Positions 41,023-55,682 of a stretch of 64,000 nt of DNA are shown piece by piece. Under the pieces are notes generated by a model. The model ran no database searches, was not told the DNA's origin, and worked only from the letters and a program-made list of their open reading frames with translations. A program made the translations under genes and the position numbers. Numbering within the stretch: the stretch's first letter is position 1; each line of letters begins with the position of its first letter. The stretch is taken from positions 124,001-188,000 of the forward strand of contig NC_013192.1 in NCBI RefSeq assembly GCF_000023905.1, read 5' to 3'. The DNA is from Leptotrichia buccalis C-1013-b. Its GTDB lineage: Bacteria; Fusobacteriota; Fusobacteriia; Fusobacteriales; Leptotrichiaceae.

Positions 41023-41200
41023 GAAAAATTTGTGAAATAAAGTAAAAAATATGGATAATAACTTGTAAAAATTTAGAAAATGTGATAAAATAAAGACCGA
41101 TATGTAAAAAATAATTTTAACTGAACATATAATTTATAAAATAGTTAAGTTATACATTAAAAGAAAGAGCAGTAAAAGACTGTATCAGATTAAAAATAGA

Positions 41201-41243
41201 AAGGAGAGCTACTAAAGTTATTTAGTAGATGTGAATAATTATG
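41201..41243 (+). promoter_or_regulatory. rpmB ribosome-binding site with hairpin before the start codon
   Basis: AAGGAG (41201-41206) is 34 nt from the ATG of rpmB, too far for normal initiation. Between them, CTACTAAA and TTTAGTAG (41209-41228) form a perfect 8-bp hairpin. Folding it shortens the path to 14 nt. It may control or enable initiation. Confidence 0.5.
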
Positions 41244-48577: not shown

Positions 48578-49243
48578 ATGAAATTAAAAAAATTGGAAAT
48601 TTCTGAAAGAGTTGTTCAAAGATTGACAGAATATTTATCTATTTTAAAAGAGGCTCGAAAACGAGATGATGAAATAAATTCCATTGAGCTTGCAAAGATT
48701 ATGAATACAACTTCTGCTCAAGTACGTAAGGATTTATCCACATTTGGTGAATTTGGTGTACGTGGCAAGGGCTACGATATTGATAATTTGATAGAAATTA
48801 TTACAAAAATTCTGGGAATAGATAAAATTAATCATGTTATAATTGTAGGACATGGAAAAATGGGAGAAATGCTTTCTTCAAATGTTGAAGTTCTAGGAGA
48901 AGGTTTTAAAATTGTAGGAATTTTTGACAAAGATGAAAATAAAATTGGAAAAATTGCCGAAAATAATTTAGTTATTCAAGATGTAAGAAATGTTGAAGAG
49001 TTTGTAAAAAATATGAAAAATGAATTTAACATAAAGATAGATACAGCTATTTTGGCAGTTATAAAAGAGCAGGCACAATTTGCAGCTGAAGAGCTTGTAA
49101 AAAATGGAATTTGTGCGATACTTAATATGACGACTTATAAATTGGAATTAAATAAAAATATAAAAGTGGTAGATATGGATATTTCTGCCAAATTACAGGA
49201 ACTAAACTTTTGGCGAATAAATAGTCCGAATGAAAAGATATAA
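48578..49243 (+). CDS. rex: Redox-sensing transcriptional repressor Rex
   Basis: Rex senses the NADH/NAD+ ratio and represses fermentation and respiration genes. The winged-helix DNA-binding domain (about 1-80) includes TTSAQVRKDLSTFGEFGVRGKGYD, and the Rossmann domain has VGHGKMGEML. The C-terminal swapped helix ends the protein at 221 aa. AGGAGG precedes the ATG. No Rex operator was identified with confidence in this window. Confidence 0.95.
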   Translation: MKLKKLEISERVVQRLTEYLSILKEARKRDDEINSIELAKIMNTTSAQVRKDLSTFGEFGVRGKGYDIDNLIEIITKILGIDKINHVIIVGHGKMGEMLSSNVEVLGEGFKIVGIFDKDENKIGKIAENNLVIQDVRNVEEFVKNMKNEFNIKIDTAILAVIKEQAQFAAEELVKNGICAILNMTTYKLELNKNIKVVDMDISAKLQELNFWRINSPNEKI

Positions 49244-49250
49244 CAATGAA

Positions 49251-49288
49251 AGGAGAAACTGCTAAATTTGATTAGCAGTAAAGGTATG
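49251..49288 (+). promoter_or_regulatory. folD ribosome-binding site with hairpin before the start codon
   Basis: AGGAG (49251-49255) is 30 nt from the ATG at 49286. In between, ACTGCTAA (49258-49265) pairs perfectly with TTAGCAGT (49272-49279), loop ATTTGA. Folding this 22-nt hairpin leaves exactly 8 nt between the site and ATG, the ideal spacing. An in-frame TTG (49268) lies in the loop and is 12 nt from AGGAG, so it is the competing start. Confidence 0.55.
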
Positions 49289-50137
49289 ACTATAATTGAC
49301 GGAAAGATGCTCTCAGATAAAATTTTGAAAGAAATTGAAGAAGAGCATAGTGAATTACAGACAGGAGTTGGCAGAAAAGCTGGACTTGCGGTAATTATAG
49401 TAGGTGAAAATCCTGCTTCACAAATCTACGTAAGAAATAAAATAAGAGCATGTGAAAGAGTAGGATTTCATTCTGAAACAATTAGACTTGATGAGCATAT
49501 TACAGAAGAAAATTTACTTTTGGAAATTGAAAAATTAAACAATGATAATAATATTGACGGAATTTTGGTGCAATTGCCAATTCCAAAACATATCAATGAA
49601 TTGAAAGTTATAAATGCAATCTCGGCTGAAAAGGATGTGGACGGATTTCATACAACAAATATTGGAAAAATGATGATTGGAGATGAAACAGGATTTCTGC
49701 CTTGCACACCAGCTGGAGTAATTCAGATGTTTGAAGAATACAATATCGACTTGGAGGGGAAAGACGTTTTGGTAATTGGGCAAAGTAACATTGTAGGAAA
49801 ACCGATGACACTTTTACTTATAAATAAACGTGCAACAGTGCAGGTTTGTAATTCAAAAACAAAAAATTTACCTGAAAAGCTGCAAAAAGCTGATGTTGTA
49901 GTAGCTGCAGCTGGTTCGCCTAAATTAGTAAAAGGTTCAGATGTAAAAGAAGGCGTTGTTGTAATTGATATTGGAATAAATCGGGTAGACGGTAAAATAT
50001 GTGGAGATGTGGATTTTGAAGAAGTTTCACAAAAAGCATCATACATTACTCCAGTTCCTGGCGGTGTAGGACCAATGACAATTGCGATGTTAATAAAAAA
50101 TACATTCAAATCATATAAACAAAAAGTAGGTAAATAA
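49286..50137 (+). CDS. folD: Bifunctional methylenetetrahydrofolate dehydrogenase/cyclohydrolase
   Basis: FolD interconverts 5,10-methylene- and 10-formyl-tetrahydrofolate, feeding purine synthesis and Fmt. Signatures are IYVRNKIRACERVGF with the catalytic lysine region, GILVQLPIPKH, and the NADP-binding VIGQSNIVGKPM. PVPGGVGPMTIAML ends the domain. From the ATG at 49286 it has 283 aa. The start context with its hairpin is described separately. It follows rex by 42 bp and precedes accB. Confidence 0.95.
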   Translation: MTIIDGKMLSDKILKEIEEEHSELQTGVGRKAGLAVIIVGENPASQIYVRNKIRACERVGFHSETIRLDEHITEENLLLEIEKLNNDNNIDGILVQLPIPKHINELKVINAISAEKDVDGFHTTNIGKMMIGDETGFLPCTPAGVIQMFEEYNIDLEGKDVLVIGQSNIVGKPMTLLLINKRATVQVCNSKTKNLPEKLQKADVVVAAAGSPKLVKGSDVKEGVVVIDIGINRVDGKICGDVDFEEVSQKASYITPVPGGVGPMTIAMLIKNTFKSYKQKVGK

Positions 50138-54013: not shown

Positions 54014-54170
54014 ATATCTTGTCGATACAAAAAGGTATCAAAGGACAATGATATAAGAATAGAAGAAGCAATAAGTGTAAAAGATAAATATTAATGTCAA
54101 GAACTCTTGTCTATAAGATAAGATTCTCGTCAAGACAAAAGGTGAAATTAAATATATGTAAAATATATTG

Positions 54171-55682
<1,512 letters not shown>

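Follow-up and report, generated by a model that had tools for sequence, protein, structure and literature searches.

The leader of folD in the oral bacterium Leptotrichia buccalis C-1013-b raises the question of how translation could start where a strong Shine–Dalgarno (SD) sequence and the start codon are separated by a perfect inverted repeat. The locus was studied in a 64,000-nt segment (the window; NC_013192.1, positions 124,001–188,000) of the 2.47 Mb chromosome, and its leader was compared with those of orthologous and unrelated genes of the genus.

The folD leader and its conservation in Leptotrichia

The gene folD (49286–50137, + strand) encodes methylenetetrahydrofolate dehydrogenase/cyclohydrolase and was attributed to the NCBIfam FolD models (e.g., NF010786, E = 5e-114). 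It follows rex (48578–49243, + strand; NF003995, E = 4e-70), the stop codon of which lies 4 nt ahead of the folD SD. This extended SD, GAAAGGAG (49248–49255, + strand), is 8 nt long and includes AGGAG at 49251–49255. A 16S rRNA model matched positions 178169–179680 of the chromosome (G000:C1), that is, 54169–55680 of the window. The 3' region of this gene reads GGATCACCTCCTTTCT (about 55667–55682) and contains the anti-SD complement CTCCTTTC (55674–55681, + strand), so that all 8 nt of GAAAGGAG are complementary to the 16S rRNA encoded in the window itself. Should the last bases be missing from the mature rRNA, six of the pairs would still form.

Between the SD and the ATG at 49286, a linear distance of 30 nt, lies a perfect hairpin of 22 nt and 8 Watson–Crick pairs (49258–49279). 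It is made up of the 5' arm ACTGCTAA (49258–49265), the loop ATTTGA (49266–49271) and the 3' arm TTAGCAGT (49272–49279), and is followed by the spacer AAAGGT (49280–49285), which reads AAAGCT in relatives. With the hairpin looped out, AA and AAAGGT leave a spacing of 8 nt, which confirms the arithmetic of the initial annotation of this locus. The hairpin was also found to be the minimum-energy structure of the 60-nt leader (−9.5 kcal/mol, RNAfold). A promoter-like element, TTGATT-17-TATAAT (49268–49296), overlaps the hairpin and the start; its −10 half falls in conserved codons and its −35 half in loop and stem sequence that is not conserved.

The gene folD was found in all 13 genomes of the genus, and the hairpin is kept in seven of them with diverged arms. 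The arms are ACTGCTAA/TTAGCAGT in the window, CCTGCTGAAT/ATTCGGCAGG, CCTGTTGAAT/ATTTGGCAGG and CCTGTTAAAT/ATTTAGCAGG in one genome each, and TACTGCTAG(A)/TTAGTGGTA in three; the seven leaders contain six distinct hairpin regions. In the alignment of the seven leaders, 98.1% of the pair cells were paired, and registers slid by 1–3 nt reduced pairing to 19–52%. Two pairs of the stem are altered on both sides (A-U/C-G and A-U/G-C), five on one side via G-U, and one is invariant. The shuffle control for covariation was modest (9/500), and the covariation comes from seven related species, a small number. The SD is unchanged in 7/7 of these leaders and the folded spacing is 7–8 nt in every one. The initial annotation had proposed looking for compensatory changes in relatives and held that a lack of conservation would speak against its reading; the relatives do keep the hairpin, with the two doubly changed pairs and many G-U wobbles.

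In the other six genomes the leader has no hairpin, and an SD lies 3–4 nt from the same ATG. This SD is GGAGAGCTATG in G006, G011 and G012 and GGAGGTYTTATG in G005, G007 and G009. The rex–folD intergenic region is longer in the GGAGAGCTATG leaders (L010, L014 and L012 in the order of genomes just given), at approximately 69–97 nt vs. 42–45 nt, and folD perhaps has a promoter of its own there. A combined rpoB and folD tree grouped the seven hairpin genomes with a support of 90/100 and placed the non-hairpin species outside, while the order of the hairpin species was unresolved in the trees of folD or rpoB alone. The simplest history given by the combined tree is a single insertion into an ordinary ribosome-binding site (RBS). 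Most likely, the hairpin entered such a site once, in the ancestor of the seven species.

Recurrence of the layout at other genes

The initial annotation took folD alone, but folD is one of a class. Leaders of folD, a CoA-disulfide-reductase-like gene (CDR), alaS and a NUDIX hydrolase gene were compared in the 13 genomes, 52 orthologous leaders in all, of which 33 have a hairpin and 19 do not. Hairpins were found in 10/13 genomes at CDR, in 8/13 at alaS and in 8/13 at the NUDIX gene. In all 33 hairpin-bearing leaders, the linear spacing is 30–41 nt but the folded spacing is 7–13 nt, and the 19 hairpin-free leaders have a spacing of 3–12 nt. The SD of the hairpin-bearing leaders is always GAAAGGAG or AGAAAGGAG. 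The key test is that a change of length inside the hairpin leaves the folded spacing nearly constant: NUDIX hairpins vary from 20 to 30 nt in length and their folded spacing stays within 8 to 12 nt. In the predicted folds of all 33 leaders, the SD has a mean unpaired probability of 0.84–0.99.

The NUDIX stem contains one doubly changed pair (shuffle control: 23/500), and the CDR hairpins are so highly conserved in sequence that the covariation shuffle control was uninformative for them. General alignment using MAFFT misaligned hairpins from different genes. The CDR and NUDIX hairpins (L197–L206 and L223–L232; leader positions 1440–1500 in gene orientation) have the stem TGTATGRT/ATCATACA in common, although the genes are unrelated, which may reflect a shared origin or co-regulation. 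This stem was considered as a dispersed element and rejected: it was found behind an SD only at CDR and NUDIX, and in the half of the genome that was sampled, the strict TGTATGRT...ATCATACA palindrome pattern matched a single site. At alaS, the gene of G012 (L220) shares only 84% identity with the main group and carries a separate hairpin of different sequence, whereas that of G006, at 97% identity to the main group, has none. Recombination or independent gain may explain this pattern.

To estimate the frequency of the layout, 1.66 Mb were surveyed, consisting of 1.26 Mb of the window's genome (about half) and 0.4 Mb of G002 (about a sixth). SDs of at least 7 nt were collected that had no start within 14 nt and an ATG with an open frame 18–47 nt away. 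Hairpins were counted at pairing scores of 7 or more if they brought the spacing to 4–14 nt; these thresholds were fixed after folD had been seen. Of the 61 strong SDs collected in this way, 13 are followed by such a hairpin. The background was 231/8181 (2.8%) before ordinary ATGs (Fisher P = 2e-8), 5/185 behind reversed-SD anchors (P = 1e-5) and 57/1184 upstream of ordinary SDs (P = 1e-5), and in 435 kb from other bacteria a hairpin was present at 1/23 such SDs. The 13 do not include folD itself, since the TTG in its loop made the filter call a near start. A first, shuffle-based expectation (0.57 vs. 10 observed) was superseded by these more conservative genomic controls.

Within the window, the leader of rpmB (50S ribosomal protein L28; 41241–41498, + strand; TIGR00009, E = 4e-18) is likely a second hairpin-bridged RBS, judging by its layout. 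Its SD, AGAAAGGAG (41198–41206, + strand), is separated from the ATG by the hairpin CTACTAAA-GTTA-TTTAGTAG (41209–41228, + strand), giving a folded spacing of 14 nt, and the whole leader (41198–41243) reads AGAAAGGAG-AG-CTACTAAAGTTATTTAGTAG-ATGTGAATAATT-ATG. Directly behind the rpmB hairpin there is an ATG with TGA as the next codon.

Alternative readings of the folD hairpin

The inverted repeat could be thought a chance feature of an AT-rich leader: the fold z-score of the lone 91-nt folD fragment is weak (−1.19), and a comparable hairpin was found in about 3% of ordinary 30–36-nt stretches before ATGs. With such a z-score a single sequence is no proof, and the proof is supplied by conservation with covarying arms in 7/13 genomes. 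Together with the repetition at three further genes, the relatives already refute chance, to which we give practically no weight. Nearly as implausible is a start of translation at the TTG in the loop (49268), which in this species is in frame and lies 12 nt after AGGAG, a tolerable distance from the SD. This codon is specific to the species: no relative has it, three carry in-frame stops (TGA and TAA, or two TAA) both at its position and beside it, and in the other three there is no start at this place. The ATG at 49286 is conserved as the start in relatives and fits the FolD N-terminus. Given that the TTG is not conserved, the ATG is taken as the folD start, and the concern of the initial annotation that the TTG might be the true start does not apply.

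A DNA operator, bound by Rex or another repressor, would make the RNA fold incidental. Operators are typically inverted repeats, rex is the neighbouring gene, and DNA palindromes likewise give paired changes. The types of pairs were therefore counted over the distinct hairpins, which gave 166 Watson–Crick, 25 G-U, 3 A-C and 1 other. DNA symmetry or neutral decay predicts similar numbers of G-U and A-C, so 25 vs. 3 favours RNA over DNA (25/28, P = 3e-5, an optimistic value since related sequences are not independent). In addition, the stem sequences vary by species and gene, the hairpin position is locked to the SD (0–5 nt behind it), and no palindrome of the Rex consensus type TTGTTAAnnnnTTAACAA was found at the hairpin even with up to 3 mismatches allowed. 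A full match to the folD palindrome was found once in the genome, which also led to the rejection of a dispersed repeat. We therefore regard an operator as improbable. Only slightly more credible, and still unlikely, is a regulatory RNA (a protein-binding, ligand-binding or temperature-sensing element or a processing site) that serves mainly for control, with bridging as a by-product. Leader hairpins are often control elements, and the stem common to CDR and NUDIX could be counted in favour of this. Against it, neither loops nor stems keep their sequence from gene to gene or, at folD, from species to species, the SD is left free, and the hairpin-bearing genes are diverse housekeeping genes. 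A search of the folD leader with Rfam covariance models (including, e.g., the THF riboswitch) gave no match at E up to 1. The switch operated by a ligand or protein that the initial annotation had allowed for thus finds no support, given the lack of sequence conservation and the empty Rfam result. An SD-sequestering RNA thermometer or attenuator was rejected since the folD SD is mostly unpaired; the AU-rich stem may melt with temperature, an effect that would be compatible with bridging. An intrinsic terminator was also rejected: on the + strand the hairpin is followed by AAAGGT and no U tract, and a weak terminator-like pattern is found on the minus strand only, its tail being the complement of the SD.

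Proposed mechanism, known systems and further candidate genes

All these characteristics allow us to assume that the folD leader is very probably a hairpin-bridged (split) RBS of the type of T4 genes 38 and 25. The proposal of the initial annotation that the hairpin places a remote SD within working range of the start, as at gene 38, was supported by every sequence-level test: the stem shows compensatory and wobble changes, the folded spacing is near constant while the linear one varies, and hairpin-free relatives have the SD beside the same ATG. According to the proposed mechanism, the 30S subunit would pair with the extended SD GAAAGGAG, and the 22-nt hairpin would fold, be looped out and stay folded in the spacer. 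The AUG, thereby placed 8 nt from the SD, could enter the P site. After the hairpin had been inserted once into an ordinary RBS in the ancestor of the seven species, its arms would have been held paired, since the SD would be 30 nt from the start if they came apart. Folding of the hairpin would be expected to raise folD translation, and by analogy with T4 genes 38 and 25 the ribosome presumably accommodates the folded hairpin. The AU-rich stem could be melted by the translating ribosome leaving rex.

The bridging mechanism is already known from phage T4. A hairpin cuts the SD–AUG spacing from 22 to 5 nt at gene 38 (PMC3014915) and, as relayed in the same source, from 27 to 11 nt at gene 25 (Nivinskas 1999; Malys and Nivinskas 2009); mutations destabilising these structures lower initiation (PMC3014915). 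To the extent that the gene 25 work is represented there, this "accommodated" or split RBS is present in close T-even phages and absent from distant ones, which is like the patchy presence in Leptotrichia, and it was proved by reporters and DMS probing, whereas the Leptotrichia case is known from sequence alone. It is also a single phage gene, whereas in Leptotrichia, a bacterial genus, the layout recurs as a class. The gene 38 leader was re-read in the T4 record and consists of an SD, a hairpin, a short spacer and the ATG. Like the folD leader, it has the hairpin immediately behind the SD, a short spacer before the AUG and a position at an intercistronic junction. It differs in its GC-rich stem with a UUCG tetraloop and in belonging to a phage late gene, while the Leptotrichia leaders have AU-richer stems, an extended SD of 8–9 nt and chromosomal housekeeping genes.

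In E. coli thrS, SD and AUG are neighbours, with no hairpin in between. The split ribosome-binding site of thrS likewise has structured RNA splitting the ribosome-binding region, and it was treated as standby-site modules with large structures (PMC3936740). Extended SD initiation in Staphylococcus aureus also involves strong, long SD–anti-SD pairing, but no hairpin between the SD and the start codon was described for it, unlike in Leptotrichia (PMC13009471). A study of 58 difficult E. coli genes looked for RBSs that are restored by folding, and none was convincing (PMC1805508). In the searchable literature, outside which most subscription papers lie, demonstrated bridging of an SD by a hairpin was found at the two T4 genes only. 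The recurrent use of this layout in a bacterial genus appears to be new in that literature, and an earlier bacterial example may exist in subscription papers.

We consider it reasonably probable that in Leptotrichia, and perhaps in the family, hairpin-bridged RBSs are a standing chromosomal feature, used in each genome by some ten genes or more, among them alaS, folD and possibly rpmB and typA. Between the extended SD and the start, hairpins would have been repeatedly gained and lost, pairing being the sole target of selection, and ribosomes in this lineage may have an unusual tolerance for a hairpin folded in the spacer. The housekeeping genes, their covariation and the natural hairpin-free orthologues provide material on how the 30S subunit accommodates a spacer hairpin, and in the leaders selection can be followed as it acts on RNA pairing as such. 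Start predictors that look for the SD in a fixed window can overlook hairpin-bridged starts or place them wrongly.

Several other genes are likely members of the class by their leader sequences. Ahead of a 674-aa open frame of the window's genome (G000:C1:2304523; L155:4523–4562, minus strand), AGAAAGGAG is followed at once by a 10-pair hairpin and AAAAGT-ATG; there was no Pfam match for this frame, and the gene before it encodes a product whose end resembles that of an ABC-transporter ATPase. Also likely members are an M13-family peptidase gene (L169), typA (L144, a weaker candidate) and proB in G005 (L269). The SD–hairpin–ATG layout is also present in G017, which belongs to another genus of the family, at rlmB (L283:11130–11177, 12-bp stem) and rlmN (L289:13497–13538, 11-bp stem), also likely members, and these two genes suggest that the hairpin habit extends beyond Leptotrichia.
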